DNA from: a virus
Reading direction: 5' to 3' (one strand)
Virus record (IMG/VR): IMGVR_UViG_3300024262_000089
Span: 1 to 39,985 of that record
DNA length: 39,985 bases
Shown: positions 7,178-38,384 of the stretch, in pieces
How the letters are laid out: the number at the start of each line of letters is the position of its first letter
Numbering within the stretch: position 1 is the first letter of the stretch
Position numbers and translations under genes: made by a program
Notes under the pieces: generated by a model
Seen by the model: the letters and a program-made list of their open reading frames with translations, nothing else
What the model was told of the DNA's origin: nothing
Databases searched by the model: none

Positions 7178-7200
7178 CTTTTCCTCAGGGAGAAATAGCA

Positions 7201-7584
7201 ATGGCGAATGAAGCTCAACTTCATATCAGTCTTCGAATCAATAATCCTACTTCCAAATTCGAAGCTCAAAGTACAAATACTTCTTACACAGTAGACGTTG
7301 CAGGTTCTAGTGGACCAGTTCCGGGAATGGTAGTAGCAACAACCGCTGGACTCGACGTTGCTTTTACTGGATTGACTGTTCCTACATGGTGCGTTCTCAA
7401 AAATCTGGATTCAACGAACTTTGTTGAGTACGGAATCTGGGATGGAGCAACTTTTCATGAATTGGGAGAACTGCCGCCTCTCAGTAAGCCTCAAATCATC
7501 AAGCTTTCAAGAAACATGACTGGCTTTCGTCTCAAAGCTGACACTGCTTCGTGCGACGTTTCTGTTGAGGCATACGAATTGTAA
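7201..7584 (+). CDS. Small structural protein of the tail tip (hypothetical)
   Basis: 127 residues, beta-rich, with an SD in CTCAGGGAGAA. The LKNLDSTNFVEYGIWDG stretch followed by a P-P-L-S-K-P segment resembles small beta-sandwich proteins found next to tail-tip genes of siphophages. No enzyme motifs are seen. It sits in an unbroken run of + strand virion genes. Confidence 0.45.
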   Translation: MANEAQLHISLRINNPTSKFEAQSTNTSYTVDVAGSSGPVPGMVVATTAGLDVAFTGLTVPTWCVLKNLDSTNFVEYGIWDGATFHELGELPPLSKPQIIKLSRNMTGFRLKADTASCDVSVEAYEL

Positions 7585-7609
7585 ATTTTCACTTAAGACT
7601 GGAGCAATT

Positions 7610-7786
7610 ATGAACAAGAACGTCGATGGACTCGTCTTTTACCAATCAAAAGAATTTCAAGCTTTGTGTAAACGGTTTGGAATAGACTGGGAAAAGAGAA
7701 CAACTAAGTTACAAATCACTATTGACATTAACTCAATTGTTACTGTTATTCAAAATTACAATGCGGAAAACATTGTTGAACCCTAA
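7610..7786 (+). CDS. Hypothetical protein, 58 aa
   Basis: The start at 7610 is chosen because it lies 5 nt after GACTGGAGC, the leader used by several genes here; an upstream in-frame ATG at 7565 lies inside the previous gene. The sequence is mixed helix and strand with no motif I recognise. Confidence 0.5.
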   Translation: MNKNVDGLVFYQSKEFQALCKRFGIDWEKRTTKLQITIDINSIVTVIQNYNAENIVEP

Positions 7787-7817
7787 CACTTAAAATCCTC
7801 TAAGACTGGAGCGTCTG

Positions 7818-10495: not shown

Positions 10496-10524
10496 TAACA
10501 ATTGCATAATTGACTGGAGCCAAT

Positions 10525-13362
10525 GTGCCAAAGGTTATTGAATTTCGACCATTCTACATTGGGAATAAAGCAGGCTCACGTTCTGAGTTTGTCTTTGAGC
10601 CTAAACTGAAAGAATGGATTGGACCAGATTCAAGCCTCATTAGACAAAATGGCTGGCATCTTTCTCAAGGTGATTCAGCGATTCCTTGCGAGCATACAGG
10701 CACGGGAGCAAAGTGCGGCGAATGGGATTTTCCAGAACTATTACTTCCACCCGAAGATATCGTTAAAGGTAAACGCAAAACAGCAAGAAACCGCTCAAGA
10801 CAATCTACAACTAAACGAACCAAAGCCAGAGTTCACTCAAGAAAAGTTATTGTTCCGGGAGTAGGTTCCTGCATGGCGGAACTTATTTCAAACTTCTTTT
10901 CTATCAAAGATTCCAGCGGCTGCAACTGTAAAGCCTACGCTTCCAAAATGGATAAATGGGGGCCAGAAGGTTGCGAACTTCATCGAGAAGAAATCATCAA
11001 TCATCTAGCCAAGAATACAGAAATTCTTCGGAAGGGAATTCAAGACCTCAACATTCCTGGTTGCGGCTTACTTTCAAAACTCGCCGGCACTTCCGCTGCA
11101 ATTCCTCTTCTCAAGATTGGAGCGAATTGGTTACTCACTAAAGCAATCTCCAGTCACAAATCGAAGAAAGAAGCAGCGACAAAGGTTGGTCCCAAAGATG
11201 CGATCAAATGGATTGAACCAAATCCTTTGAACCTGACTCGGAATCTTGCAATTCATGTCTTCCCGGTCATTGGCAAATGGGAATGGCTCATTGAAGCTCT
11301 TAAAGACAAGACTCATCTTTTCAATGGTCGTAAGCTTGTCTCAATCGTCACTTCTAAAGGCGATTCTGTACGCTTCAAAAACCGAACGATCAGACTTCAA
11401 AATCCTGAAACAGTCGCTGCTCAATTTCGAGAACTTGGCTTTGAGGTTTCTCTCAGGGAAAACTCGGTGAGGACGGGTGAGTTTGTTTCGTTTGCTCCAA
11501 TGGTCAAAGAGCTTTACTCAACTGACCCTTCCCAAGTCACTTTGTACTTACACAGCAAAGGTTCAAAGCATCCAGACAATGAATTTCGATCTATTACAAA
11601 ATGGAATGAAACGATGTTGTCTGTCTTGCTTGATATTGAATCGGTCACAGCGAGTTTCAGCAGAGGCAATGATTTAGTTGGAGCGTTGGGTGGAGATGTT
11701 TTTGGTGATGGCAATGTTCCAATGGGGTCATTCTACTGGTTTAGAAATTCGACTGGTGAAGCAACAGTCACTCCTCACAAGAATCCTTTCTTCACTTCAG
11801 AGAGTTGGCCATCCAAGATATTCAATCAAGAGTATCTCTTAGGTGCAGTCGATGGAAGCAGACCATTCAAGCAACTCTATACAGCAAACTTCTGGGATAA
11901 TGGTGAAGGTTCTGACAGACTCAAGAGATTCAATTCTCAAAGAGTCCATAGTATCGAAGAACCAAAAATCACTTTGATTACTCCAACAGGCGATCGACCA
12001 GAAGCTTTCAGACTCTGCGAGAAATGGATATCTCAACAAACTCTAAAACCTTTTGAGTGGATCGTCATTGACGATGGCGAAGTTCCTACTCAAATCACTC
12101 AAGGTCAAAACTACATCAGGCGACAAGGTAGAAAGAGTTCAGAACATACTCTTCCAGACCAGATGCTTGAAGCTCTCAAGTATGTGACTGGAGATTTTGT
12201 AATCATGATCGAAGACGATGACTACTATCATCCAGAGTATCTTCAATTGATGGTTCAACAATTACAAACAGCGGAGCTTGTCGGAGAAGTTGGCGCTCGA
12301 TACTACTACCTTCCAACTGCAACTTTCAGACACTACACAGAACACACTCATAGCAGTTTCTGCCGAACAGGTTTCAGAAAGAATGTCATCCCACTGCTTT
12401 CAGAAATCTGTAAGGCTTCAAACGAGTCTTTGGATATCAATCTTTGGGAACAATGGACTGGAACCAAACAGCAGCAGTGGAAATCTACGACGATTGGTTG
12501 CATTGGTATCAAAGGAATGCCTGGTCGAAAATCCCATAATAAGATCAGACCAGAAATTGATGATCACAATCTCAAGACGCTGAAGCAATGGTGTCCCGAT
12601 TGGAATGACTACTTACCCTTCTTGAAACCTATCAAAAATCGAGTGGAAGAGACGGGAACACTCTTCAGTATTCTTCTCAGGGAGTATGACCGATTCAGGC
12701 CAGTCTCTGCTGACTCAAGATTTGATCGTCAACTATTAACTGATTCCAAAGAAGTCAAAGTTCAAGGATGGAATATCAATCCAGTCAAACACACTCCAAG
12801 TGATCCTAAGCAATCAAGACATTTGAAGATTCTTGCTACTCAATCTTTTCCAGATGCTGATTGGATTCTTTATCATGATGCTCAACTTCAATTGAAGTGT
12901 AGTCCCTCATTCTGGTTTGATTGGGTACGTTCTCAAGGTGAAGCAGACATTTACTTTTATCATCATCATCAAAGGCATTGTGTCTACAAAGAAGCTAAAG
13001 AGGTGATGAAGATTCGAAAAGATAAGCCTCAAAATGTTCAACCTCAAATTGCTCGATACGCAAGCCAGAAGATTCCTGAAAACCTTGGATTGTATCTCGG
13101 TGGATTACACATTCGACGAAATACAGAAGCTGTAAAAGCCTTCGAAGAAATCTGGTGGCGTGAAGTTAAACGCGGTTCAGTCAGAGACCAGATTTCTTTG
13201 CCCGTCGCTCTTAGAGAAAGTGGCGTCAAGTTTTTAGCTTTACCGCCAATGTCATGGACTCAACATTTTCAAAGATATACTCACCTCACGAATACTCCAG
13301 TCATTGAAAATATGTCGGCGAATGATATTCGTGTCTGGGAAAACTTTAAGAAAACGAAGTAA
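10525..13362 (+). CDS. Multidomain glycosyltransferase
   Basis: 945 residues from GTG 10525, placed 2 nt after GACTGGAGCC; the TTG 10510 would put the SD inside the gene. Three parts are visible. Residues about 100-460 hold a Cys-rich patch and a region with LYLHSKGSKHP, as in phage and rhamnan-type sugar transferases. Residues about 480-720 are a GT2 (GT-A) domain: ITLITPTGDRP, WIVIDDGE and VIMIEDDDYYHP, the DxD-type metal site. The last ~220 residues resemble the DUF616/TOD1-like glycosyltransferase domain, with ILYHDAQLQL, a histidine run and WREVKRGSVRDQISLP. It probably builds a glycan in several steps. Confidence 0.75.
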   Translation: MPKVIEFRPFYIGNKAGSRSEFVFEPKLKEWIGPDSSLIRQNGWHLSQGDSAIPCEHTGTGAKCGEWDFPELLLPPEDIVKGKRKTARNRSRQSTTKRTKARVHSRKVIVPGVGSCMAELISNFFSIKDSSGCNCKAYASKMDKWGPEGCELHREEIINHLAKNTEILRKGIQDLNIPGCGLLSKLAGTSAAIPLLKIGANWLLTKAISSHKSKKEAATKVGPKDAIKWIEPNPLNLTRNLAIHVFPVIGKWEWLIEALKDKTHLFNGRKLVSIVTSKGDSVRFKNRTIRLQNPETVAAQFRELGFEVSLRENSVRTGEFVSFAPMVKELYSTDPSQVTLYLHSKGSKHPDNEFRSITKWNETMLSVLLDIESVTASFSRGNDLVGALGGDVFGDGNVPMGSFYWFRNSTGEATVTPHKNPFFTSESWPSKIFNQEYLLGAVDGSRPFKQLYTANFWDNGEGSDRLKRFNSQRVHSIEEPKITLITPTGDRPEAFRLCEKWISQQTLKPFEWIVIDDGEVPTQITQGQNYIRRQGRKSSEHTLPDQMLEALKYVTGDFVIMIEDDDYYHPEYLQLMVQQLQTAELVGEVGARYYYLPTATFRHYTEHTHSSFCRTGFRKNVIPLLSEICKASNESLDINLWEQWTGTKQQQWKSTTIGCIGIKGMPGRKSHNKIRPEIDDHNLKTLKQWCPDWNDYLPFLKPIKNRVEETGTLFSILLREYDRFRPVSADSRFDRQLLTDSKEVKVQGWNINPVKHTPSDPKQSRHLKILATQSFPDADWILYHDAQLQLKCSPSFWFDWVRSQGEADIYFYHHHQRHCVYKEAKEVMKIRKDKPQNVQPQIARYASQKIPENLGLYLGGLHIRRNTEAVKAFEEIWWREVKRGSVRDQISLPVALRESGVKFLALPPMSWTQHFQRYTHLTNTPVIENMSANDIRVWENFKKTK

Positions 13363-13385: not shown

Positions 13386-14063
13386 ATGTCTGCAATGCAA
13401 TGGTCTTATGGAATTACAACAGTTCCTTCAAGATTACACACAACCTTTCCAAGAACTCTTAAATCACTTGCTAACACAGGATTTGACAAACCTCACTTGT
13501 TTGTTGATGGATGTTCAGATTCAGATAAGTATCTGAATTGCTCCAGCCATGGAATCACACTTCATCATCCAGCTCTCAGAACCGTTGGTAATTGGGTTGC
13601 AGCACTCTGGGAACTCTATTGCAAGAACCCAGACGCCCATCGGTATGCAATCTTTCAAGACGATTTAGTGACCTGTCTTTCTCTCAGGGAATACTTGGAA
13701 AAGTGCCCCTACATCACTAACACTTATCTCAATCTGTTTACTGCTCTAGCAAATCAATCAAGTCATGAAGGCTGGTACTTCTCAAATCAAAAAGGTCTGG
13801 GAGCAGTCGCACTCGTCTTTGATAATCAAACAGCAATTAAACTTCTGAAGAGTCCAAAGCTGATTGATAAACCTAAAAGCTCAAAAGGTCACAAAGCAAT
13901 TGATGGAGCAATCATTGATGCTCTCAAAGATTCTGGTGTCAAAGAATTAGTTCACAATCCTTCTCTTGTACAACACACAGGAGAAGTCACTTCAATCGTT
14001 GGTAACAAGCAACATCCAATTTCCTCATCATTCCCTGGAGAAGATTATGACCTTCTCAAATGA
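13386..14063 (+). CDS. GT-A fold glycosyltransferase-like protein
   Basis: 225 residues behind GACTGGAGC. The opening WSYGITTVPSRL and HLFVDGCSDSD, then YAIFQDDLVT with an acidic D-D pair near residue 98, resemble GT-A glycosyltransferases of phage and bacterial sugar clusters (nucleotide-sugar site followed by DxD-like metal site). It lies between two stronger glycosyltransferases and its end overlaps the start of the next. The donor and acceptor are unknown. Confidence 0.6.
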   Translation: MSAMQWSYGITTVPSRLHTTFPRTLKSLANTGFDKPHLFVDGCSDSDKYLNCSSHGITLHHPALRTVGNWVAALWELYCKNPDAHRYAIFQDDLVTCLSLREYLEKCPYITNTYLNLFTALANQSSHEGWYFSNQKGLGAVALVFDNQTAIKLLKSPKLIDKPKSSKGHKAIDGAIIDALKDSGVKELVHNPSLVQHTGEVTSIVGNKQHPISSSFPGEDYDLLK

Positions 14064-15344: not shown

Positions 15345-15593
15345 ATGGTTCTAGCAGTCTTCTTTGCTGGATTGATTGTAGCTCTCTTAGGAGCAATGTG
15401 TGAGAACGCATACCACGCTGGAGATATCAAAGCCACTGGCTTACTCTCTTTGGTCCAGTGTATTTCTCAGGGATTAATTGCGTGGGTCGTTATTGCGGAT
15501 AAGTCATTACCCTACTTGATTGCTTCTGCGATGGCCTGGTCAATTGGTTCAATGGTTGGTTGCTACTGGAAAAAATTAAACCATGAAACCTGA
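15345..15593 (+). CDS. Integral membrane protein, 82 aa
   Basis: About three hydrophobic segments (residues 1-18, 33-52, 55-72) separated by short loops, with a basic C-terminus (YWKKLNHET). Behind AAAAGGAATCAAGG. It is followed by another tiny membrane protein, overlapping by 11 nt. Size and topology would fit a holin-like or antiholin-like protein, but no endolysin is in the window to support that. Confidence 0.5.
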   Translation: MVLAVFFAGLIVALLGAMCENAYHAGDIKATGLLSLVQCISQGLIAWVVIADKSLPYLIASAMAWSIGSMVGCYWKKLNHET

Positions 15594-17254: not shown

Positions 17255-18130
17255 ATGAGAATCTACTACATAGGCAAATTCAAAGAAGAACACAACACAG
17301 AAAACTACGTCACCGCTGCCTTCGAAGAATTAGGCCACAAAGTCTATCAATACAAACACAACAAAAAGGAAACTCTTGCTCAAATCTTCAATCGAATTCA
17401 AGAGTTTGGAGCAGACACAGTTCTCTTCAGTAAAGCAGAATTTCCAGAAGCAAAAAAGTTGATTGATCTTTGCTATGCGAAAGGAATTCTGACTGTCTGC
17501 TGGCAATTCGATTTATTCATTGGATATCGCTCAAAACTCCCAGAACAATTCTGGTCTGATTTTCTCTTTACAACAGATGGTGGACACCAAAGAGAGTTTA
17601 TCAAGCTTCGATGCAATCATCGTTTGCTGCGTCAAGGAATTCATAAACCAGAAGCCATCAAGATAGACTCTACAGAATACAAATACGATGTAGCGTTCGT
17701 TGGTAGTTGCACTCACGTAAGTCATGAATCAAGACGGAACCTTTTGAAGTTCCTTCAACAAAGAAAAAGCTTCATTCATTATCAGACCATGAGAGGCTTG
17801 AAACTGAATGAAGCTTTAAATCAAGTCAAAATCGTCGTCGGTGATTCTTATCCTTCACCAAATTACTGGAGCAATCGAATCTATGAAATCACTGGCCGAG
17901 GTGGATTCTTTCTACACCCATTCACAGAAGGCTTAGACTCAGAGTTTGAAGATGGCGAACACTACGTTGGTTATCAGCGAGGCAACTACAAACAACTCTG
18001 TGATCGCATTGATCTTCTTCTCAGGGAAGATTCGGCGAGGGAAAGAATCCGCCAAGCTGGGTTTGAGAAGACTCGCAATTGCTACACCTACACTCACAGA
18101 GTTCAAGAATTGCTTTCAATAATTTCTTGA
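17255..18130 (+). CDS. CgeB-like glycosyltransferase (GT-B)
   Basis: 291 residues. Features of the CgeB / glycosyltransferase group 1 family: YDVAFVGSCTHVSHESRRNLL in mid-protein, YWSNRIYEITGRGGFFLHPFTEGL as the donor-site region, and the tail of alternating basic helices. It ends the + strand run and the stop is 10 nt before a strong inverted repeat. Substrate unknown. Confidence 0.75.
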   Translation: MRIYYIGKFKEEHNTENYVTAAFEELGHKVYQYKHNKKETLAQIFNRIQEFGADTVLFSKAEFPEAKKLIDLCYAKGILTVCWQFDLFIGYRSKLPEQFWSDFLFTTDGGHQREFIKLRCNHRLLRQGIHKPEAIKIDSTEYKYDVAFVGSCTHVSHESRRNLLKFLQQRKSFIHYQTMRGLKLNEALNQVKIVVGDSYPSPNYWSNRIYEITGRGGFFLHPFTEGLDSEFEDGEHYVGYQRGNYKQLCDRIDLLLREDSARERIRQAGFEKTRNCYTYTHRVQELLSIIS

Positions 18131-18139
18131 AGCTCCTTC

Positions 18140-18200
18140 GCCAGCAGCCTCCCTCTTTTCCGTTCAGCTCCAGTCCGGTTCTGAGGTAGAGGCTGCTGGC
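18140..18200 (+). terminator. Probable terminator of the glycosyltransferase operon
   Basis: Perfect 12-bp inverted repeat: GCCAGCAGCCTC at 18140-18151 and GAGGCTGCTGGC at 18189-18200, with a 37-nt loop, followed on the + strand by TCTTCTT. It is placed 10 nt after the last gene. The T-tract is imperfect, so it may also be a bidirectional barrier for the convergent transcripts. Confidence 0.6.
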
Positions 18201-18579
18201 TCTTCTTAGGTTTCTTTCGTATACCTAATTGGTGGGAAAAGGCGTCTGGAAGCTTCTAGGGTTAATCTAGGAGGTTTAAGACACGATTCTAGGCACCCTG
18301 CTCGCGTTTTAAGGCCTGTTTCGAGCCTCAGCCGTAGGTTATATCTAATCTGGGGCTTAGAGGCTCTAAAATCGCGTCTGAGGGCTTCGGAGAAAAGAAG
18401 GGTACGTTCGTTTTCTTATTTGAAGAGGCGTCTGAGGAACGATCCTGTGACCTTGCCGGCTGCTCGTCTGGCGATTCTCCGTCCAACTCTACCTTTCTGG
18501 ATAGCGTTGAAGTCACCCATCAGTCGAGCGATGAAGTAAAGGAAGCTTCTCATGATATCTCCTGAAGAAAAAGGGAAAG

Positions 18580-18628
18580 GTCCGATGGATGGAATTGAAC
18601 CATCGTATACGCAAACCTGCCATCGGAC
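18580..18628 (-). ncRNA. tRNA-like structure: acceptor stem plus T-arm only
   Basis: Read on the - strand, TCCGATG (with the 7 bases CATCGGA) forms a perfect acceptor-like stem, extendable to 9 bp. Inside it, GATGG TTCAATT CCATC is a perfect 5-bp T-stem with a 7-nt loop that fits the TTCRANY consensus. Only 16 nt, with a small GCA/TGC hairpin, lie where the D-arm and anticodon arm should be. It is not a decoding tRNA. Confidence 0.55.
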
Positions 18629-18720
18629 GACTCTTCAAAACTTTGTCATGATGCACCTAGCTTTCTTGTATTGGACTCTTCCGAAGCGAAGTAGTCAGGA
18701 TTGTTAATCAGGTAGCACAC

Positions 18721-18769
18721 TCTGTAGTCTGGTTTGCGAATACTATGTTGACTCCAGAACTTCTACAGA
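18721..18769 (-). ncRNA. Structured hairpin in the helicase 3' region
   Basis: Outer stem of 7 perfect bp (18721-18727 with 18763-18769) and inner stem of 5 bp (18728-18732 with 18754-18758), the two separated by a one-sided 4-nt bulge. It lies 45 bp past the helicase stop on that strand and lacks a T-run, so it may stabilise the transcript end or be part of a non-coding RNA. Confidence 0.4.
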
Positions 18770-18813
18770 CTTGATTTAGCTTTCGATCACTTGGCTATCA
18801 TGCGTTCCCTGAT

Positions 18814-22508: not shown

Positions 22509-22509
22509 T

Positions 22510-22791: not shown

Positions 22792-22835
22792 GACTAGATT
22801 CCCTGAAGAAAAAGGTAAGAAATCGAAATGGTGGA

Positions 22836-23840: not shown

Positions 23841-25205
23841 TCAGACAGATTTCAGATGCTCCAAAGAAACCTCAATAACCGTTCCGGCACCCGCATAGCC
23901 GTTCCCGACTGAGACTTTCGCCCTTTTGGGGTAGAGTTCTTTGATGGTTCCCTTCCATCGTGAGGCTTCGTCGTCAGTCTCTTGGACCCAAACTTCATCG
24001 CCCTCTAAATGCTTGCCTTTTCGCTTCGTAGGCTTCTCTTCGAGGGTTTTATCGTCGTCTTCTGGCTCATCTTCCTCTTCGGGTTTCTCTGGCTTGCCAA
24101 GGTCAATACCGCCAACTGTCGGACACTCAATCAGAGTCTGATAACCGTCTTCGTTGATCTTGTATTCCAACTTGAGTTTTTCTCTGGTCACTGTCTTCCC
24201 TGAAGAAAATAGATTCCAAGCTTTGATCAGCAGAGCCACTGTATCCTCAGTTGTGATTCTTTCGTCGTCATCGACTTCTGCCATCATTTCAAAAAGGTGT
24301 TGGAGTTTATTCGAACGAGCAGCGATCAAAACGAAGAATTCTTGAGCGAGTTCTTCCATGCTCCAATCAAGAACAGATTCACTTCTGACATCATCATCAG
24401 AATAGTATTCATGGAAAATGGATTTGGAAGATGCCATTAAGTAAAGCAGAGCAGCACACTTGCCAGGAACCAGCCATTTCGTGATATTGCCATCAGTGTC
24501 CTCTTCAAAAATAAAGCCTACGCAATCAATCAATTTCAGATGTCGTTCAACGAAGCCGATTGATTCGCTGTGAGTTCGTTTTGCAGCGTTGAAGGGATCA
24601 AAACAAGCTCCAGTTCTTTCCCAGAGATTTCTGATACAGAAGTCTGCGATTCGGGCAACTCGTTTTTTCTGAGTTCCGTTGAGCTTCATGGATTGGAAAT
24701 AAGCTGAACGATACATCACGTCAGTCAGGCTCCGTGGTTTGCAGGTATCCATCGTGTTCACCGTCTCGTCGCCTTCATCGACTCCATACACAATCAACTT
24801 CTCGATGAAAGGTTCTTCAGACCAGAACTGACCCTCGGGCCATTCAGCGTATTCCTCTGCTGCGAGAATCAAACCAATCAGAGTGTGTTGACCATTGAGT
24901 ACCAATCCCGTTTTACCAATAATGATTGGCTCGCCGTTGAACATCCACCGATAACGAAGAATTTCTTGCTTCAGCGAATCGTAATTGCTCTTGGAAATTG
25001 GCCGATTCGTGATGTTGTTAGCGAGGAATACTTTCCTTGATCCAACTTTGAAATTGTGAATTTCCAAAGGCGTCTCATCTGTTGCTTCAGTCCATCCCAG
25101 AAGTTCTTTGGCTTCGTCCGCTGAGATGTAATCTCCTGGAGAAGAATAAGCGATTTCAGCAAACAGAACTTCACGGGCAGCAGCAGTCGTTTTCTTGGTA
25201 GCCAT
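23841..25205 (-). CDS. ParB-like (NGQH-type) nuclease/regulator
   Basis: 454 residues from ATG 25205 (leader CAAGGAAACGACAA). ParB-like N-terminal domain: after ITNRPISKSNYDSL comes PIIIGKTGLVLNGQHTLIGLILA, whose NGQH corresponds to the GxHR/GQHR loop of ParB/Srx-type phosphohydrolase folds. Middle part helical (about residues 110-330). After an acidic linker (EEEDEPEDDDK) a C-terminal 60-residue beta domain (DEVWVQETDDEASRWKGTI) looks like an SH3/Tudor-like module. Could be a partition-like or transcriptional regulator. Function not provable here. Confidence 0.55.
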   Translation of the reverse strand: MATKKTTAAAREVLFAEIAYSSPGDYISADEAKELLGWTEATDETPLEIHNFKVGSRKVFLANNITNRPISKSNYDSLKQEILRYRWMFNGEPIIIGKTGLVLNGQHTLIGLILAAEEYAEWPEGQFWSEEPFIEKLIVYGVDEGDETVNTMDTCKPRSLTDVMYRSAYFQSMKLNGTQKKRVARIADFCIRNLWERTGACFDPFNAAKRTHSESIGFVERHLKLIDCVGFIFEEDTDGNITKWLVPGKCAALLYLMASSKSIFHEYYSDDDVRSESVLDWSMEELAQEFFVLIAARSNKLQHLFEMMAEVDDDERITTEDTVALLIKAWNLFSSGKTVTREKLKLEYKINEDGYQTLIECPTVGGIDLGKPEKPEEEDEPEDDDKTLEEKPTKRKGKHLEGDEVWVQETDDEASRWKGTIKELYPKRAKVSVGNGYAGAGTVIEVSLEHLKSV

Positions 25206-25474: not shown

Positions 25475-25483
25475 GAGAAACTC

Positions 25484-25801: not shown

Positions 25802-25812
25802 CAGACTTCTCC

Positions 25813-26025: not shown

Positions 26026-26072
26026 TTCGTTTCTCCAGAGGGTTTCAAAAATGGGGTAAGAAAACTTGGTGA

Positions 26073-26712: not shown

Positions 26713-27063
26713 ATGTCTAAGAAGTCTTCAGAGATATGGAAAGTGATCCCAGCTCAAAGTCTTTCTCGCCGCGAAGGATATTTTGAGGCATCTTCTTTTG
26801 GACGAATCAGAGAGGAAACAGATGACGGATATCTGTATCTGGAACCTTTTTTCTCCAGAGTGAATAAACTTCAGATAATTCGCTTCTCTAAAAATAGGCA
26901 AAGGCCAGTTCATCAACTGGTGCTCCACGCCTTCAAAGGTCTGAAGCCTCAAGGCTGCTCTGAGTTTGTCTATCGAGCAAAACACCTTGATGGAAACTTC
27001 TTGAACAACACTCCAGAAAATCTTGCTTGGATCAAAGTTCCGAGAGAGGAAGCTGCCGTCTGA
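26713..27063 (+). CDS. NUMOD4/HNH-type endonuclease
   Basis: 116 residues. Begins with an EIWKVIPA...YFEASSFGRIR segment typical of NUMOD4 domains, then HQLVLHAFKG and KHLDGNFLNNTPENLAWI, the HNH_3 signature (H-x-D-G-x-x-x-N-N-x-x-x-N-L-x-W). Free-standing HNH enzymes of this type are common mobile genes in phages. It opens the rightward replication block. Confidence 0.75.
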   Translation: MSKKSSEIWKVIPAQSLSRREGYFEASSFGRIREETDDGYLYLEPFFSRVNKLQIIRFSKNRQRPVHQLVLHAFKGLKPQGCSEFVYRAKHLDGNFLNNTPENLAWIKVPREEAAV

Positions 27064-27100
27064 TTTGCTTGCTCTTTTTCTTCAGGGAATTGCGAGGAAG

Positions 27101-27129
27101 GCTGCCGAGAAATCGAGCAGCGTTTTTTA
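27101..27129 (+). terminator. Rho-independent terminator with GAAA loop
   Basis: GCTGC CGA GAAA TCG A GCAGC followed by GTTTTTTATT: a 5-bp outer and 3-bp inner stem with a GNRA tetraloop and one bulged base. It lies 37 nt after the HNH gene and just before the next promoter. Confidence 0.75.
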
Positions 27130-27138
27130 TTTCTAAGC

Positions 27139-27149
27139 TACGTTATAAT
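27139..27149 (+). promoter_or_regulatory. Promoter candidate with extended -10 TACGTTATAAT
   Basis: TACGTTATAAT, preceded by a T-rich stretch (TTTTTTATTTCTAAGC) that is similar to the region upstream of 29970. No clear -35. Placed between a terminator and the gene at 27189. Confidence 0.5.
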
Positions 27150-27188
27150 ACGCGGCACCAAATCACCTCTGACTTCGAAAGGTACATA

Positions 27189-27395
27189 ATGACGAATGGC
27201 AACAACAAGTATTCATGGGATGAGTGGTTCAAGAAAAACTATTTCACCCTGAAGCATGGCAGACACTTTGAGGGTGATCCTTCTACGATGTGCCAACAGG
27301 TTCGGAACGCCGCGAGTAGAAGAGGTCTTTCAGTTTCTGTAAGGCAAGACCCAGCAACTAACTCAATCAAGGTGACAATCAATGGCCCGCGTTAA
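27189..27395 (+). CDS. Small basic protein, 68 aa
   Basis: ATG 27189 behind CGAAAGGTACATA; the longer frame to 27027 is not favoured because it crosses the terminator and promoter. Contains the aromatic/basic N-terminus WDEWFKKNYFTLKHGRHF and a C-terminal beta part (SVRQDPATNSIKVTI). No family recognised. Confidence 0.5.
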   Translation: MTNGNNKYSWDEWFKKNYFTLKHGRHFEGDPSTMCQQVRNAASRRGLSVSVRQDPATNSIKVTINGPR

Positions 27396-27483
27396 AGGCT
27401 GCTCTCATGGCAACGATCCTCAAGACTGCGACGAATGCCAGATTGAAAAGATTCAACATCCCCCAAATGGAAATGACAGATAA
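27382..27483 (+). CDS. 33-aa Cys-containing peptide
   Basis: ATG 27382 follows CAAGGTGACAATCA and overlaps the preceding gene; stop TAA 27481-27483. Has C-x-H and C-x2-C (GCSHG and CDEC), so a mini zinc knuckle is possible. Small, supported by SD and spacing only. Confidence 0.35.
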   Translation: MARVKGCSHGNDPQDCDECQIEKIQHPPNGNDR

Positions 27484-27494
27484 AGGAAAATCCA

Positions 27495-27953
27495 ATGGGA
27501 ATGCACGCTGATGATTGCCTTAATGAAACTCTTCAACATGAAATGAATTTTCAGAACTACAGTGAAGGAAATCTAAGTCTGGAAGAAGCCTATGAACTTG
27601 GGCTGATTGATGAGCGAGGATACGCTCCAAAAGAATTAGTAGACTCTTCTCTCAGACTTGGAGTTATGGATGCAGAATCACTTGAAAATGAACTTGCTCT
27701 TTGCGAAGGAGCTTTCAAGGGTTCATCCAGTTGTCTGACCCAATTGCTAGGATCAAACTTTCTTTTTAAGCAGCGTCAAAAATCTTCTGAGGTAATCCAC
27801 TATTGGAGATCAGGAACAAAACTCCTACTTCCAAAAGACATGACTAATTCTCATTTGGAGAACGCAATTACCTATTGCAAGAAAAATGGAATTGAAAAAA
27901 CTCCAATTGCCAAAAATATGGTCAAAGAATTAAAGAAAAGGAAGTCTAAATGA
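27495..27953 (+). CDS. Hypothetical protein, 152 aa
   Basis: ATG 27495 behind AAAGGAAAA. Helical and acidic in the first half (LSLEEAYELGLIDERGYAP), basic at the end (ELKKRKSK). Its stop overlaps the next start (ATGA). No family recognised. Confidence 0.5.
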   Translation: MGMHADDCLNETLQHEMNFQNYSEGNLSLEEAYELGLIDERGYAPKELVDSSLRLGVMDAESLENELALCEGAFKGSSSCLTQLLGSNFLFKQRQKSSEVIHYWRSGTKLLLPKDMTNSHLENAITYCKKNGIEKTPIAKNMVKELKKRKSK

Positions 27954-28330
27954 CTAAGGAAGTGAAAAGAATCGAAAGAGGTTGGCCTGGGCACTTTATT
28001 TGTGCGCACAGATGTAGATTCAGAAGAAATACTCTTTTAGAACTGAAATCTCTAAGGTTAATTGTCAGTACAGTTGGTTGTATGGAGGACCCTTTGAATC
28101 CAGATAAATTTTTTGAGATTGGATTCAATAGACATTATGAAACCATGGTATTCTTTGCTTCCTGGCAAGAAGGAAAATACTGGGATGCTGATTGTCAAAG
28201 AGGAGAAGTCAGTTTTGACTCTCCTTGGATGGTTAAGGATTTGGAAAATGATAATCTAGCGAATAATCAACACGAAGAAGTTGTTAAAGAAATTCAAACT
28301 AGAATGCTTCAAGGAGACTCCTTCAAATGA
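27950..28330 (+). CDS. Conserved phage-type protein, RGWPGHFICA motif
   Basis: 126 residues. The opening RGWPGHFICAHRCRFRRNTLLEL is typical of a widespread uncharacterised phage family, whose biochemical role is not known to me. Coupled at both ends to neighbours (ATGA overlaps), directly before the RuvC-like resolvase. Confidence 0.5.
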   Translation: MTKEVKRIERGWPGHFICAHRCRFRRNTLLELKSLRLIVSTVGCMEDPLNPDKFFEIGFNRHYETMVFFASWQEGKYWDADCQRGEVSFDSPWMVKDLENDNLANNQHEEVVKEIQTRMLQGDSFK

Positions 28331-28815
28331 CATACTTCATTGGAATTGATCCAGGAAAATCAGGCGGTCTGGTTGCTCTTTCTTCTTCAGGGAAGATTGA
28401 GGAAGCCTCAGTGATGCCTTCAACTGAAACAGATATCGCAAATTGGTTTGGCGGTTACTCAAATCTTATCAACGGTCACAATTACGCTCTAATTGAAAAA
28501 GTTCATGCGATGCCAGGACAAGGTGTGACGAGCATGTTTACTTTTGGACGTAATTTTGGTTTTTTGAGGGCTTGTCTTTGCTGCAATGAAATACCTTTTA
28601 ATGAAATTCAACCAAGAGAATGGCAGAAAGCTTTTGGAATTCCTTCTAAGAAGAAAACTGAAAACAAGAGACAATTCAAAATCAGACTGCTAGAAAAAGC
28701 TCAACAACTGTTTCCAAGTTTTCCGCTTTGGAAAGAACCAAGGGCATTGGGTAGGCAACTTTCAATCTGTGATGCTTTGTTAATTGCAGAATTCTGTAGG
28801 AGGATTTATGGATGA
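28327..28815 (+). CDS. RuvC-like Holliday junction resolvase
   Basis: 162 residues. Acidic RNase H-fold catalytic positions are visible: D8 in FIGIDPGKSGG, E57 in ALIEKVH and D149 in SICDALLIAEF. The MPGQGVTSMFTFGRNFGFL segment matches phage RuvC-like enzymes. It should cut branched DNA during recombination or before packaging. Overlaps the previous gene by ATGA and the following zinc-ribbon gene. Confidence 0.85.
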   Translation: MTYFIGIDPGKSGGLVALSSSGKIEEASVMPSTETDIANWFGGYSNLINGHNYALIEKVHAMPGQGVTSMFTFGRNFGFLRACLCCNEIPFNEIQPREWQKAFGIPSKKKTENKRQFKIRLLEKAQQLFPSFPLWKEPRALGRQLSICDALLIAEFCRRIYG

Positions 28816-30798: not shown

Positions 30799-31911
30799 AT
30801 GAAAAAGAAATCAGCAACTTCAAAACTGAAAAAGATCAAAGTTGAGAAAAGGGAACCAGTTTGGAAAGGTCCAATTGAAGAAGGTGTTACTCAAAGTTTG
30901 TTGAGTATGTTTTTGACTTGCCGAGAACGATTCAGACTGAGGGTGGTTGAAGGCTTGCGAGTGGTAGAGGGATTTTCCAAAGCTCTTGAATATGGAAACA
31001 TGTGGCATCTCTGCGAAGAGAATCATGCTCACGGAATTGATTGGGAGAAGCCTCTCAAAGAGTATGCTCAAAAACTGGTTGGTCTGTATCAAGGTCAACA
31101 AGAGGAAGTCAGCAAGTGGTATTCAATCTGCAAGATGCAATTTCCCCATTATGTGAAATACTGGAAGCAACATCCAGACGTTAAGAAGCGAACGCCAGTC
31201 TTGTCTGAGGAAGTCTTTTGCGTGCCTTATGTTCTTCCTTCAGGGAGAGTAGTGAAGCTGAAGGGTAAATGGGACAGTGTTGATATCGTTGGTAAGGGAA
31301 GAAATCGACAACTCTGGCTCCAAGAGAATAAATCCAAAGGAACCGTTGACGAAGAAAATATGGAACTGCAATTGGCCTTCGATCCTCAAACGATGATTTA
31401 TGTCGTGGCTCTTGAAGCAGCGATCAAATGCGGTCAAGTAAAATCTCCAGAAGAAAAGATTACTGGCGTACGTTATAATGTCGTGCGGAGACCACTGAGT
31501 AGCGGGAAAGGTTGTATCAGACAACACAAACCGACGAAAAGTAATCCTGCTGGAGAAAGCCTTGAGAGTTTCTATGGTAGGCTGGAGCAATATATCGTTG
31601 ACGAGCCAGAACACTATTTCAAACGATGGAACGTAGAACTCTCTCAAACAGACATTGATAAGTTCAAAACTCAATTTTTCAATCCAATTTTGGAACAACT
31701 CTGCGATTGGTGGGAGTTCATCGCCGTAGAGCCTTTCAATCCTTGGACTAAACGAATGGGACATGCTCAAGGAATTCATTGGAGACATCCTTATGGAATG
31801 TACAATCCAGTGAATGAAGGAAGAGACCAATACAGTGAGTTTTTGAAGAATGGAAACGAAACAGGATTGACTAGAATTCCAGAACTGTTCCCCGAACTGA
31901 AAGAAGAATAA
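30799..31911 (+). CDS. PD-(D/E)XK nuclease, RecB/Cas4-like
   Basis: 370 residues. After the basic N-terminus SKLKKIKVEK come QSLLSMFLTCRERFRLR, GNMWHLCEE (His70) and KGKWDSVDIV (Asp159), then LWLQENKSKG (Glu176-x-Lys178), the D-(x)-ExK core; QLAFDPQTMIYVVALEA follows as in motif QxxxY. Likely a 5' or 3' exonuclease used with the downstream Sak4 recombinase. It contains one copy of TACGTTATAAT (31469). Confidence 0.85.
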   Translation: MKKKSATSKLKKIKVEKREPVWKGPIEEGVTQSLLSMFLTCRERFRLRVVEGLRVVEGFSKALEYGNMWHLCEENHAHGIDWEKPLKEYAQKLVGLYQGQQEEVSKWYSICKMQFPHYVKYWKQHPDVKKRTPVLSEEVFCVPYVLPSGRVVKLKGKWDSVDIVGKGRNRQLWLQENKSKGTVDEENMELQLAFDPQTMIYVVALEAAIKCGQVKSPEEKITGVRYNVVRRPLSSGKGCIRQHKPTKSNPAGESLESFYGRLEQYIVDEPEHYFKRWNVELSQTDIDKFKTQFFNPILEQLCDWWEFIAVEPFNPWTKRMGHAQGIHWRHPYGMYNPVNEGRDQYSEFLKNGNETGLTRIPELFPELKEE

Positions 31912-32164: not shown

Positions 32165-32340
32165 GGCAAGGTGGCGAAATGGTAGACGCTGATGACATAG
32201 AAGACTTATGAAGGTGTGCTATGTCCCCGAGAACAGTGAATAAACGCGAGTGACAAGAGGGTCTGGAAGGTCACTGGTTTTGATCCAGCAGCACTGTCGC
32301 GAATTAGTAAGTCATGCAGGTTCGAATCCTGCCCTTGCCA
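32165..32340 (+). tRNA. tRNA-like gene with a large internal insert
   Basis: Perfect 7-bp acceptor stem: GGCAAGG (32165-32171) with CCTTGCC (32333-32339), discriminator A. Next a D-arm of the leucine type (GCG AAATGGTAGA CGC) and a perfect T-arm GCAGG TTCGAAT CCTGC (32316-32332). Between D- and T-arm are about 120 nt, where 35-50 would be usual. The insert can form GACATAG/CTATGTC, CGCGA/TCGCG and GTGAC/GTCAC hairpins, and no ordinary anticodon arm is evident. Intron, hybrid or tRNA-like RNA are open. Confidence 0.65.
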
Positions 32341-32375
32341 TTTTACAAATCCCTGAAACTGACTGGAGAAATCTG

Positions 32376-33406: not shown

Positions 33407-33589
33407 ATGCTTTGTCTGACACGGAGGCTAAAAGAAGCAATCATGATTAACGACAACATTGAAATCGTTGTTTTGGAAACAAGAGAAGATCGTGTAATGA
33501 TTGGAATTCAAGCACCAAAAGAAATGAAGATTTATAGAAAGGAGATTTGGCTCAAAAGAAAATCCGCTGAGAAAGATTCTACAGAGTAG
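33407..33589 (+). CDS. csrA: CsrA/RsmA-family RNA-binding regulator
   Basis: 60 residues from ATG 33407 (leader TTCAAGGAGAATAAA); the longer frame to 33296 is not used. It begins MLCLTRRLKEAIMI and continues VLETREDRVMIGIQAPKEMKIYRKEI, the CsrA fold, with the Leu4/Arg6 end and the later Arg44-like position that bind RNA. CsrA binds GGA in mRNA leaders and changes translation or decay. Its own leader has CAAGGA overlapping the SD. A phage-borne copy suggests control of host or phage messages. Confidence 0.92.
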   Translation: MLCLTRRLKEAIMINDNIEIVVLETREDRVMIGIQAPKEMKIYRKEIWLKRKSAEKDSTE

Positions 33590-34581: not shown

Positions 34582-34583
34582 AT

Positions 34584-34656
34584 GGTCCTGTAGTTCAATT
34601 GGGAGAACAGCGGGGTGCATCCCGGACGAATGCTGGTTCGAATCCAGCCAGGACCA
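34584..34656 (+). tRNA. tRNA with atypical anticodon arm (tentatively GCA)
   Basis: Acceptor GGTCCTG/CAGGACC is perfect, D-arm GTTC AATTGGGA GAAC and T-arm GCTGG TTCGAAT CCAGC are canonical, discriminator A, length 73. The anticodon region GCGGG GTGCATC CCGGA pairs poorly (2 mismatches) with a 7-nt loop, reading GCA (Cys) at the standard place; a better CGGG/CCCG stem leaves a 6-nt loop. Identity uncertain. Confidence 0.8.
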
Positions 34657-34734
34657 ATGTTATATTCGGCATGGACAAGGCCGATAACTTGATGCCTCTG
34701 ACTTAACCAGTCCCGTTTCCTTATTGGCATCTCA

Positions 34735-34777: not shown

Positions 34778-35008
34778 ATGAATAGAAAACAGGCTGTTTG
34801 TTTGTTCTGTATATTGTGGGTTGTAATCCCTCTTTTGATTATTGAAATTTCCGCAGCTTCAAAAATGATTGAGAGATACTATGTAACCTCTGTAGGAATA
34901 GAGGATTGGTGTTTACTGATTTTAGCAATGACATTTTTTGTTTTCTTGAATGTCTGCTTGATTGGCACTTCCATCGCCCTTTACTTAACTTTTTCTTCAG
35001 GGAAATAA
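34778..35008 (+). CDS. Small two-span membrane protein, 76 aa
   Basis: Hydrophobic spans about residues 8-27 and 45-70 (FCILWVVIPLLIIEI and LLILAMTFFVFLNVCLIGTSIAL) joined by a short loop. SD weak (TTAAGGATTCAAC). Ends in TTCTTCAGGGAAATAA, one of the repeated motifs. May act in host membrane; unknown. Confidence 0.5.
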   Translation: MNRKQAVCLFCILWVVIPLLIIEISAASKMIERYYVTSVGIEDWCLLILAMTFFVFLNVCLIGTSIALYLTFSSGK

Positions 35009-35180: not shown

Positions 35181-35724
35181 ATGGGTTCTAAGACCTGAAG
35201 TGTTACTTTGCCCTAATACCCCTAAGCCAATGCACGGAATCGCTCCAAGGGTAATCCTAGGACAGAAGTGGTGGGATGCTACAAGGAAAGCTGCTTATCA
35301 ATCCACTGATTTACATTGTGTCGCTTGTGGAACTCCCAAACATAAAGTCAAGGGAAGTCGCAAACACTTAGAGGGTCATGAGATTTATGACGTTGATTAT
35401 CAAAGAGGAACTTTGACTTACATTGAGACTGTTCCTCTTTGCCCTTACTGTCACATGTATATTCATGATGGTAGATTGCTGGCGTTGATGCAGAAAAAAG
35501 TTCTCACTCAAAGAAAGTTCACAGCAGTCATTCAACATGGCGATTCAGTTTTGAAGGCAGCAGGATTAAATCGACCAACAAAATTCAGTCGAGACGAAGC
35601 TATAATCTCTGCAATCTCAAATGGAAAAGTTGCTGAATGGGCTGAGTGGAGATTGATACTCAAGGGCAAAACGTATCCACCTAAGTTCAAGACTCTGAAA
35701 GAATGGGAGAAAGCTCATGCCTGA
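35101..35724 (+). CDS. HNH-type endonuclease with basic N-terminus
   Basis: 207 residues from ATG 35101 (SD GGTGGAG). N-terminal KTLKNIKIKRSEW resembles the basic tag in the helicase. Then HCVACGTPKHK, LEGHEIYDVDYQRG and VPLCPYCHMYIHDGRLL: a zinc-supported HNH core (C-x2-C, H-x-x, C-x2-C-H-x3-H). Likely DNA endonuclease. An alternate GTG start is at 35089. Confidence 0.7.
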   Translation: MPARKEIKGKESKLSKTLKNIKIKRSEWVLRPEVLLCPNTPKPMHGIAPRVILGQKWWDATRKAAYQSTDLHCVACGTPKHKVKGSRKHLEGHEIYDVDYQRGTLTYIETVPLCPYCHMYIHDGRLLALMQKKVLTQRKFTAVIQHGDSVLKAAGLNRPTKFSRDEAIISAISNGKVAEWAEWRLILKGKTYPPKFKTLKEWEKAHA

Positions 35725-35989
35725 AATTTGTGAGTATTGTAAAGCTGAGTTTTTATGTTCTAGCAGACCAGTGAGACTCTTGTTTGGAAAACACATTTGT
35801 AAAACTTGTAGTAACAAGTTTCGAAGACATCAATTGGGGCCAGACACTTCAAAAACAGAAACTGAAATGGAGTATGAAAAGTTTCTGAAAGGTAAAGTAC
35901 AATTGCCTCTAATAATCAAACACAAAAATCGTCATGGCGATGTAGCAGCTGGACCTCTGAAACCTTCAACCAAATTTTTCAAGATGTAG
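35717..35989 (+). CDS. Zinc-finger protein, 90 aa
   Basis: ATG 35717 overlaps the previous gene. CEYCKAEFLC and ICKTCSNKF form a C-x2-C...C-x2-C site, followed by a flexible C-terminus. Sits between HNH and the next gene. Unknown. Confidence 0.5.
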   Translation: MPEICEYCKAEFLCSSRPVRLLFGKHICKTCSNKFRRHQLGPDTSKTETEMEYEKFLKGKVQLPLIIKHKNRHGDVAAGPLKPSTKFFKM

Positions 35990-35996
35990 GTTCAAA

Positions 35997-36374
35997 ATGA
36001 AAGACAATGTACGAGCCGCAATAGAGCGACTAAGACAGGACGATTTGACATTTGGAAATGACCGCAGAAACAGTTGCCGGATGAATTATGATGGACGAGC
36101 TGTTTGGGAAGATGTGCAAACTTTGCTTTCAGAACATCTGGCAGACGATGACGAGCCCGTGACTGTCGAGTGGCTGGAATCGGTCGGGTTCAAGGGCATC
36201 TCCGTGATGGCCGAGGTGATTCTGTCGGCTTACGTGCGGCTTCAAAGGCCGTCCTACGATGTCGTCGTTCGCGGAAATGGCGCGGCGTTTTCCCCGCCTC
36301 TAGCGACAGCCGAAACCCGTGGCGACGTCCGCCGATTGTGTGCAGCACTGGGGATCGAACTAAAGGAAATCTGA
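35997..36374 (+). CDS. Protein with unusual GC-rich composition, 125 aa
   Basis: Bases from about 36130 to 36350 are visibly richer in G and C than both neighbours, with codons GTC, GCC, GGC and CGC used far more. The protein (VTVEWLESVGFKGISVMAEVILSAYVRL) is helical and of unknown family. Stops directly before the polymerase. Likely recently gained from a GC-richer genome. Confidence 0.55.
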   Translation: MKDNVRAAIERLRQDDLTFGNDRRNSCRMNYDGRAVWEDVQTLLSEHLADDDEPVTVEWLESVGFKGISVMAEVILSAYVRLQRPSYDVVVRGNGAAFSPPLATAETRGDVRRLCAALGIELKEI

Positions 36375-38384
36375 ATGATTTCATGTGACACGGAAACGAC
36401 AGGGCTGGATTTCAAACATGGAACAAAACCTTTTCTAGTTACGATCTGCGATGAGAAACAAAATAATACATGGTGGGAGTGGGATGTTGATCCTTTAACA
36501 AGACAACCTCAAATCCCGGAAAAAGATATTTCGCAGATTCGAAAGAAGCTCTATCAACAAGAATTGGTATTCCATAATCCGAAATTTGATTTCAGAGCGT
36601 TGGATACTATTTCTTCTGATTGGCCTGATAGAGATTGGAATTTAGTTGATGACACTCTGACTGCTTCACATTTACTTGCTTCCAATCAGCCTCCTGACTT
36701 AACCAACTTGAGCATGATTTATCTTGGGGTGAATATCAAACCTTATGAAGATGCAGTTCAAGAAGCTTCGAATCAAGCTAGACGAATTGCCCGAAGTAAA
36801 TTTCCAGAATGGAAAATTGCTAAAAAAGGAATGAAGGAACTTCCATCTTCTACGGGAGACCTCTGGGCCAACGATATGTGGCTTCCAAGAGCCATTGCAA
36901 TGGAGTTGAATTATCCGGGAGATCATCCCTGGTGGACTGTTACTTCTGACTACGCAAATGTTGATACTGCTTCAACGATGCTTCTACATCAAGTTTTTGT
37001 AGAGCAACTTGAAGAAGAAGGATTGACGGAAATCTACAAAGAGCGATTGAAGTTACTTCCAATCATTTATGATATGGAAAGTAAAGGCATTTCACTGAGC
37101 AAAAAACGGCTGGAAGAACTCTACACTCAATACAAAGAAGAGTTTGATGCTTACAGCAAAACTTGTTTGAAGATTTCAGAGAAGGCTGGTTGTGAATTGG
37201 TATTACCAAAAGGAGCTTCACCAACCAAGACCCTCAAAGAATTCTGCTTCACAGAACCGAAAGGTTTGAAGCTACCAGTTTTGAAGACAACAGATACTGG
37301 TCAACCCTCAATGGACAAAGAGACCAAAGCTTTGTATCTGTTGACGCTGCCTGAGAAATCCAAGCAATACAAGTTCATGCGAGCGTTGGATTCCAGAGCA
37401 TCTCTTGCTACCTCAATCAACTACATGGACAGCTACAGAAAGTTCATGGTTGATGGTAGACTCTATTCTTCGATCAATCCGACTGGTACAACTACGCTGA
37501 GGATGAGCAGTAACAATCCAAACCAACAGCAGATCAGTAAGAGGATTGATAAGCATGGAAGGAATCTGAGATATCTGTTTGGTCCAGAAAAAGGCAAGGT
37601 TTGGGTCTCAATTGACTACGACAATCTGGAGTTGAGAATTCCAGCTTATGAGTGTCGAGAGATTGCAATGCTCGACCTCTTTGAGAATCCAGATAAGGCT
37701 CCATTTTTTGGTTCTTACCATTTGCTGATTGCTTCGATAATTCATCCCAAAGAGTGGAAAGTTTGCTTGAAAGAAGCTGGTCCTCAATACGTTGCTGAAC
37801 TCTTGAAGAAGAAATTCAAGGATACTCTGTACCAATGGACGAAGAATGGAAACTTCGCTGAAATGTATGGAGCAGTTGATACTCACGACGGTCAAGGAAC
37901 GGCTGATAAAGCTTTTCATGTGCCTGGTGCTCAAGAGATAATCTCTAAGAAGCTGACCAGGAAAAACGCTCTCAATAGTCAGTACATCAAATTCGCAAAC
38001 GAACACGGATATGTTGAGACGCTGCCAGACACTGAGGTTTCTGAGCGAGGATATCCGTTATACTGCTCACGAACCAATAGAGGCTACGTGAAGCCCACGA
38101 TACCACTCAATTACCACGTACAAGGAACAGCTTGTTGGATTATGATGCGAGCGATGGTTAAGGTTCAAAACTACTTCAACACTTTGCCTGATTCTATTGG
38201 AGCTAGAATCGTAATGAATGTTCATGATGAATTGGTGCTAGAGTTTTCTTCAGGGAGTAACTGGAAACCAAAAGTAAGAAGGGTAAGGACTTTGATGGAG
38301 TCTATTGGTAAAGTTCTTCAACCTCAAATCAAACTTACTTGTGGCGTAGACATTCACACTAACAATTGGAGTCAATCAGCATGA
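36375..38384 (+). CDS. Family A DNA polymerase with 3'-5' exonuclease
   Basis: 669 residues. Exonuclease motifs: DTETTGL (D5, E7), FHNPKFDF (D72), YANVD (Y193, D197). Polymerase: TTTLRMSSNNPNQQQISKR, motif A DYDNLELR (D414), motif B K490-x3-F494-x3-Y498-G, motif C HDE (617-619). No 5' nuclease domain. The O-helix Arg (E. coli R754 position) is Y486 here. It is expected to replicate the phage genome. Its stop overlaps the next ATG (ATGA). Confidence 0.92.
   Translation: MISCDTETTGLDFKHGTKPFLVTICDEKQNNTWWEWDVDPLTRQPQIPEKDISQIRKKLYQQELVFHNPKFDFRALDTISSDWPDRDWNLVDDTLTASHLLASNQPPDLTNLSMIYLGVNIKPYEDAVQEASNQARRIARSKFPEWKIAKKGMKELPSSTGDLWANDMWLPRAIAMELNYPGDHPWWTVTSDYANVDTASTMLLHQVFVEQLEEEGLTEIYKERLKLLPIIYDMESKGISLSKKRLEELYTQYKEEFDAYSKTCLKISEKAGCELVLPKGASPTKTLKEFCFTEPKGLKLPVLKTTDTGQPSMDKETKALYLLTLPEKSKQYKFMRALDSRASLATSINYMDSYRKFMVDGRLYSSINPTGTTTLRMSSNNPNQQQISKRIDKHGRNLRYLFGPEKGKVWVSIDYDNLELRIPAYECREIAMLDLFENPDKAPFFGSYHLLIASIIHPKEWKVCLKEAGPQYVAELLKKKFKDTLYQWTKNGNFAEMYGAVDTHDGQGTADKAFHVPGAQEIISKKLTRKNALNSQYIKFANEHGYVETLPDTEVSERGYPLYCSRTNRGYVKPTIPLNYHVQGTACWIMMRAMVKVQNYFNTLPDSIGARIVMNVHDELVLEFSSGSNWKPKVRRVRTLMESIGKVLQPQIKLTCGVDIHTNNWSQSA

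Follow-up and report, generated by a model that had tools for sequence, protein, structure and literature searches.

What protein, if any, reads a short sequence that recurs along the genome of a freshwater phage, almost invariant and each time in the sense of the genes? The DNA analysed, hereafter the window, is a stretch of 39,985 nucleotides (IMGVR_UViG_3300024262_000089) in which an initial annotation had listed TCAGGGA at 15 sense and 3 antisense positions (the latter at 21231, 32350 and 33347) and matched it to the CsrA core CARGGA. All 18 coordinates proved correct, and so did the six copies reported for the 11-mer TTCTTCAGGGA, all of them sense. In 1000 codon permutations that kept the amino-acid sequence, 2.44 sense copies of TCAGGGA were expected (maximum of the null, 9) and 4.30 antisense copies, and the expectation for TTCTTCAGGGA was 0.05; the sense value stayed below the level of about 10 or more that the initial annotation had set as speaking against an enrichment.

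TCAGGGA is enriched, but the real unit is longer. Copies not preceded by at least four pyrimidines (14498, 18806, 21231, 32350 and 33347, which include all three antisense copies) behaved like background, whereas YYYYTCAGGGA occurred 13 times in sense and never in antisense, against 0.29 and 0.34 expected from the same permutations. The full unit, a run of T or C followed by TCAGGGA, is TTTTYYTCAGGGA; RNA carrying the site reads UUUUCUUCAGGGAA. The same virus is covered further by IMGVR_UViG_3300009149_000037 (15 mismatches in 35,683 bases); with this longer record as an extension, the count of YYYYTCAGGGA rose to 17 sense and 0 antisense (0.46 and 0.99 expected), a lower bound for an incomplete genome of which about 63 kb were seen. 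A stricter null that also kept dinucleotides and left non-coding bases unchanged gave 2.2 copies in place of 17. The antisense TCAGGGA at 21231 adjoins a hairpin. The sites in the window are as follows.

7181..7191, plus strand: TTCCTCAGGGA, between genes; the ATG at 7201 follows after 9 nt, with AGGGA in Shine-Dalgarno position
11449..11459, plus strand: TCTCTCAGGGA, within ORF 10510-13362
12673..12683, plus strand: CTTCTCAGGGA, within ORF 10510-13362
13680..13690, plus strand: TCTCTCAGGGA, within ORF 13386-14063, conserved in relatives
15463..15473, plus strand: TTTCTCAGGGA, within ORF 15345-15593
18017..18027, plus strand: CTTCTCAGGGA, close to the 3' end of ORF 17255-18130, facing a convergent gap
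22800..22810, minus strand: TTCTTCAGGGA, upstream of a minus-strand ORF (MADTCKCRLC...) whose ATG follows after 8 nt
24197..24207, minus strand: TTCTTCAGGGA, within minus-strand ORF 23841-25205 (PHROG 5931)
27078..27088, plus strand: TTCTTCAGGGA, immediately downstream of the HNH-like gene 26713-27063
28383..28393, plus strand: TTCTTCAGGGA, within the RuvC-like gene 28327-28815, encoding S-S-G-K
31236..31246, plus strand: TCCTTCAGGGA, within the exonuclease gene 30799-31911
34993..35003, plus strand: TTCTTCAGGGA, 3' end of ORF 34778-35008
38246..38256, plus strand: TTCTTCAGGGA, close to the 3' end of the DNA polymerase gene 36375-38384

An origin in coding or composition is hardly credible. 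The copies do lie mostly within ORFs and encode mainly S-S-G or L-R-E, but nulls preserving codons and dinucleotides yield only 0.3-2.2 copies against the 13-17 found; moreover, the sites use three reading frames and a few fall between genes, in agreement with the earlier statement that coding does not explain the motif. The core tolerates no substitution: any single base change lowered the count to 0-2, and Y4-TCAAGGA was found twice versus 17 times for Y4-TCAGGGA. The two sites of the minus gene block are exactly those on the minus strand (p = 0.007). For about 12 of the 17 sites the position is deep within a gene, and the divergent region 26026-26712, the expected place for an operator, has none. 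The density is about one site per 3.3 kb, and regular spacing was not supported (CV 0.72 vs 0.92, P = 0.14). Judged by its sequence, TTTTYYTCAGGGA is a genuine recognition site of 13 nt, asymmetric and tightly specified, present in at least 17 copies and always in the direction of transcription.

One candidate reader of a known family was found, a gene that the initial annotation did not cite, although it favours its CsrA reading:

33407..33589, plus strand: csrA homologue, 60 aa, MLCLTRRLKEAIMINDN...IYRKEIW...

Its product matched PF02599 with 76 bits (cut-off, 27 bits), PHROG 9500 (CsrA-like regulator) and CsrA entries of the PDB, and the RNA-contacting residues L4 and R44 are kept in the alignment, which places it in the CsrA family. 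It joins the phage-borne csrA genes already described (PHROG 9500; PMC7366521, PMC11879866), and nothing in the protein is unusual beyond ordinary divergence. Since the window does encode a genuine CsrA, the idea that phage or host CsrA binds UCAGGGA in the phage mRNAs, and thereby controls how they are translated or how stable they are, deserved a test. In its favour, the CsrA-site core (A/C)A-N-GGA is present in every copy (as CAGGGA or AGGGA), CAGGGA fits CARGGA, all copies are sense, and three sites (7181, 22800 and window-equivalent 47959) occupy a Shine-Dalgarno position. In addition, the CAGGA of a related phage resembles the CsrB repeat, quoted as CAGGA(U/A/C)G (PMC7652899), and plaques were fewer when a csrA homologue of another phage was knocked down (PMC11879866).

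However, the published CsrA consensus, RUACARGGAUGU, does not include a pyrimidine tract (PMC7652899), and CsrA binding would leave the tract that the motif needs unexplained. The generic core ANGGA was not enriched (410 vs 413 expected), the CARGGA excess of about 13 was accounted for by the copies with a pyrimidine tract, and, in that context, CAAGGA did not substitute for CAGGGA. CsrA/RsmA sites carry ANGGA in a hairpin loop; here, none of 17 single folds was significant, a stem-pairing permutation test revealed no covariation, and the predicted exposure of the GGA (mean unpaired probability, 0.33) was no greater than in controls. The hairpin model was rejected for this phage; no more than a weak signal was seen in the relative G004 described below. 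Unlike CsrA/RsmA sites, the motif lies mostly in mid-ORF. It also does not appear to track csrA among relatives: seven of them (G002, G007, G009, G013, G016, G017 and G021, all incomplete records) have csrA and lack the motif, while in the incomplete record of G004 a related motif is present and csrA is not detectable. The fit of CAGGGA to the CsrA core stands, but a reading of these sites by CsrA was not supported and we consider it unlikely; a core that resembles CARGGA is, taken alone, poor evidence for CsrA.

Comparison with other phages, which the initial annotation had proposed, gave a mixed answer. In nearly all relatives the exact 11-mer was not enriched, an outcome that the initial annotation had named as refuting its reading, but in IMGVR_UViG_3300030397_000458 (G004), with 56% capsid identity, YYYTTTCAGGA occurs 23 times, 16 times in sense. 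This is the only relative with a comparably strict motif, and its resemblance to that of our phage suggests homology. Both copies in the minus block of G004 are antisense, on the plus strand. Two other relatives showed a weaker enrichment of a pyrimidine tract followed by CAG and purines. In IMGVR_UViG_3300024054_000015, Y5-CAG-R3 was in excess in sense (38 vs 12.4 expected) and not in antisense (13 vs 14.7), and an antisense excess of this type of motif was also seen in two relatives. An exact 14-mer scan of viral contigs gave matches at chance level, with at most two copies of the 11-mer per fetched stretch, and no relative at 70-95% DNA identity was found for footprinting. A search for the host with the capsid profile matched only MAGs of mixed phyla, and nothing informative was found in the literature on the 7-mer TCAGGGA. 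Among shared genes, only those for MazG and DUF3310 proteins track the motif, loosely, and neither is a plausible binder.

The sites could alternatively carry another signal in the transcript, if an RNA-binding protein or nuclease, of phage or host, recognised the pyrimidine tract, CAG and purines in mRNA, as in ribosome/S1 loading, decay or processing. The restriction of the motif to the sense strand in this phage and of the Y5-CAG-R3 excess in IMGVR_UViG_3300024054_000015 is consistent with this, as is the Shine-Dalgarno-like AGGGA with a U-rich tract ahead of it. Nevertheless, only three of the 17 sites clearly lie 5-12 nt before a start codon, better Shine-Dalgarno versions (Y4-TCAGGA) were not enriched in sense, and most internal sites are not followed by a sizeable in-frame start, the ORFs after them being mostly short or out of frame. 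The antisense excess in two relatives and the lack of structure also argue against a transcript-borne signal of this kind, to which we give a low probability.

A role as polar DNA signals for replication or recombination, similar to Chi, in place of one in transcription would fit the polarity of the sites, their dispersed and mostly intragenic positions and their density; with a replication start near 26 kb, forks could run in the same direction as the genes, and the two minus-block sites of G004 on the plus strand would agree with this. Against it, the motif is longer and stricter than known Chi sites, its sequence differs between related phages, and the two minus-block copies in our phage flip strand with the genes. 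We regard such a function as quite improbable. Even less probable, to the point of being highly unlikely, is that the sites are phage-specific promoters starting at the A of CAGGGA. Strict, gene-oriented sites numbering about 20 per genome would suit promoters, and the stretch 18000-28500 has few consensus sigma-70-type sites (4 found, 11.8 expected); however, no phage RNA polymerase was found, no second conserved element accompanies the sites, the motif is missing from the divergent promoter region, and site 18017 would drive nothing.

Our best guess, a tentative one, is an orientation-dependent site for a regulatory protein, whose mode of action would be closest to that of the stoperators in Cluster A (L5-like) mycobacteriophages. 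These number 20-30, measure 13-14 bp, lack dyad symmetry and point in the direction of transcription, and their motifs are similar but not identical between related phages (PMC6550527). Our motif shares with them a scattered arrangement of about 20 asymmetric sites, 13-14 nt long, that follow the direction of transcription; related but different motifs in related phages may be a further parallel, with one clear case (G004) and two weaker ones. A sequence-specific protein, encoded by phage or host, would read TTTTYYTCAGGGA in an orientation-dependent manner as transcription crosses it, most likely slowing, stopping or modulating the elongating polymerase or its transcript, and site and putative reader would drift together between related phages. 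The 17/17 sense orientation, the strict core, the required pyrimidine run, the flip in the minus block, the absence of RNA hairpins or pairing covariation, and the relatives favour a stoperator-like site. On the other side, in this phage just two sites, those of the minus block, speak for an orientation with transcription, those of G004 are antisense, and only one relative is comparably strict. Furthermore, stoperators lie mainly in short intergenic gaps and at an early promoter, whereas most of our sites are deep inside genes and the divergent region has none. Pfam and PHROGs scans of the roughly 63 kb seen of the incomplete genome found no integrase or immunity repressor, the only HTH match being a 78-aa excisionase-like protein.

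It is conceivable, if doubtful, that phages of a lineage with csrA label their transcription units throughout the genome with a sense-only element of pyrimidine tract, CAG and purines, and that the specificity of the phage regulator reading it shifts between phages; this would amount to a stoperator-like system without a lysogeny module, or to a CsrA of extended, U-tract-dependent specificity that binds throughout the phage's mRNAs. Few phages are known to have sites oriented with transcription across the whole genome, the main case being the mycobacteriophage stoperators, and a second, unrelated example in a csrA-carrying phage would widen the range of phage transcription control or message marking. 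The defined short sequence could serve as bait for fishing out the reader protein.

A pyrimidine tract followed by CAG|G also looks like a 3' splice site, and introns were considered for this reason. The primase-helicase gene, fused in some relatives, is split here just before site 47959. The intron reading was rejected because conserved genes, such as that of DNA polymerase, run unbroken through the motif and because the two genes are likewise separate in several other relatives. Regarding the start-associated or extended Shine-Dalgarno motifs of phages, AGGGA could serve as Shine-Dalgarno in three copies, but most copies do not precede a start codon. A separate motif of this phage, GACTGGAGC, fits that description better.

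All 18 TCAGGGA positions listed in the initial annotation, which had proposed that the motif recurs in transcript sense and matches the CsrA core CARGGA, were correct, and the six copies of TTCTTCAGGGA it had counted in the window are all in the sense direction. In 1000 permutations of the codons that kept all protein sequences, 2.44 sense copies of TCAGGGA were expected (sd 1.54, maximum 9) and 15 were observed, an enrichment; three antisense copies were found against 4.30 expected. A dinucleotide shuffle of the window gave an expectation of 6.7 for both strands.

The presence of a pyrimidine tract before TCAGGGA divided the signal copies from the noise copies. YYYYTCAGGGA (Y, T or C) occurs 13 times in the window, always in sense, versus 0.29 expected under codon permutation; copies lacking the tract, among them all three in antisense, do not exceed background. 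IMGVR_UViG_3300009149_000037, a longer record of this virus (58,560 bases; 15 mismatches to the window over a 35,683-base overlap; its coordinate + 4302 = window coordinate), contributed four further copies, all in sense. The resulting 17 of 17 sense copies compare with 0.46 expected under codon permutation, and with 2.2 under a stricter null in which dinucleotides were also kept and non-coding bases were fixed. The site has the consensus TTTTYYTCAGGGA; a purine-rich stretch comes after it, and G is weakly preferred 13-14 nt downstream. Any single substitution in the core behind the tract left 0-2 sense copies instead of 17. Of the 17 copies, the two that fall within the minus block of genes (18.5-26.3 kb) lie on the minus strand and the remaining 15 on the plus strand (p = 0.007), a test of orientation relative to transcription that depends on just these two minus-block sites. 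The coding copies occupy all three reading frames; all gene calls are mechanical ORFs. Within the window, the base preceding TCAGGGA tracks the frame: coding copies of CTTCAGGGA encode S-S-G (T at codon position 1), and those of CTCAGGGA mostly L-R-E (T at codon position 2).

A capsid protein search yielded 33 relatives, with only 45-60% capsid identity to the window phage. The enrichment in related phages that had been put forward as a check did not appear for the exact YYYYTCAGGGA, which is near chance in nearly all of them; G014 (IMGVR_UViG_3300024054_000015) has four sense and no antisense copies. The relative G004 (IMGVR_UViG_3300030397_000458; capsid 56% identical) carries 23 copies of YYYTTTCAGGA, mostly CTCTCTTTCAGGA, a motif as strict as that of the window phage. 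When the ORF list is used to define gene blocks, 16 copies run in sense and seven in antisense; since both copies in its minus block are antisense, polarity in G004 is a bias and not a rule. Three relatives show an excess of the looser Y5-CAG-R3: G014 (38 sense copies vs 12.4 expected; antisense not enriched), G003 (IMGVR_UViG_3300037882_001196; 18 vs 6.9, and antisense 12 vs 5.5) and G004 (25 vs 12.6). No clear enrichment was seen in the other nine. From their resemblance, we infer that the motifs of these four phages may constitute one family. TTTGAATCCAA also occurs 21 times in G004 (sequences L175-L178), with copies on either strand and in many cases close to the start of a gene; it looks like a separate operator or stoperator family.

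A Pfam scan of the 68 remaining proteins revealed a csrA gene:

Window 33407-33589: CsrA, 76 bits; PHROG 9500 'CsrA-like regulator'; L4 and R44 kept

Both residues are marked as critical in CsrA (PMC7652899). The gene is known in phages (30/2517; PMC7366521), and knockdown of a phage csrA in another phage led to fewer plaques (PMC11879866). The idea of CsrA as the reader of the sites therefore gained support that had not been seen when it was proposed, but most of the runnable tests went against it. ANGGA is not enriched (410 vs 413 expected), the excess of CARGGA is explained by the copies with the tract, and Y4-TCAAGGA has two sense copies, versus 17 for Y4-TCAGGGA. The published consensus RUACARGGAUGU includes ACA without a pyrimidine tract (PMC7652899), whereas the phage site has the tract. 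No stable or conserved hairpin was found at the sites, and the predicted accessibility of their GGA was not above controls. Seven relatives (G002, G007, G009, G013, G016, G017 and G021) have csrA and lack the motif; in G004, the related motif is present and csrA was not detected. A phage CsrA of altered specificity may be the reader.

The 13-nt site recurs about 20 times; its sequence is strict and asymmetric, and its copies run with transcription, show no structure and for the most part do not depend on start codons. In a relative, its place is taken by a motif that is similar but not the same. This profile fits the description of the stoperators of Cluster A mycobacteriophages (PMC6550527), and does so better than those of CsrA sites, ribosome-binding sites, promoters or Chi. 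Most sites of the window phage, unlike those of stoperator phages, are mid-gene, and the divergent region 26026-26712 has none. No integrase or known repressor was found in ~63 kb of the incomplete genome. For these two reasons, we liken the site to a stoperator and do not class it as one. Our tentative reading, to which we give somewhat less than an even chance, is that the site works most like a stoperator-type, orientation-dependent putative binding site that would be read during transcription. Readers acting at the RNA level, CsrA included, are jointly about as probable, also a little short of even.

The phage is a tailed phage, because it carries genes for tail tape measure, portal, terminase and capsid, together with DNA polymerase, helicase, primase, exonuclease, Sak4-like, RuvC-like, thymidylate-synthase-like, MazG and 5-hmdU-kinase-type genes; no close relatives were found in the phage collection. 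The 5-hmdU DNA kinase helical-domain protein and the thymidylate-synthase-like enzyme (window 38366-39226; sequence L012, 66-1001) suggest DNA with hypermodified thymine. Primase and helicase form a single gene in some relatives (G002, G003, G004) and two genes ~600 bp apart in the window phage (46532-49288 in extended window coordinates; L012:2230-4986), with a motif copy immediately 5' of the second. A tRNA gene of unclear anticodon lies at window 34583-34657 (Rfam, 50 bits); the tRNA-Gln called by ARAGORN at 32251-32341 had no Rfam confirmation. Sigma-70-type consensus promoters are fewer in window 18000-28500 than in shuffles (4 matches vs 11.8), which may point to a host whose promoters follow different rules. 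Another over-represented motif, (GA)CTGGAGC (GACTGGAGC, nine sense and one antisense), is found shortly upstream of several late-gene ATGs (starts 2701, 6005, 7818, 13386, 15717 and 16287) and resembles a Shine-Dalgarno sequence associated with starts. Other relatives have dispersed motifs of their own: TTAGAGGATA is present 10 times on the two strands of 13.5 kb in L139, and CATCCAGAA seven times in 18 kb in L162/L207. Capsid relatives of 31-44% identity occur in MAGs, including the GTDB MAG contig JAISLW010000268.1 (L220), labeled Planctomycetaceae, Bacteroidales, Crocinitomicaceae and archaeon.
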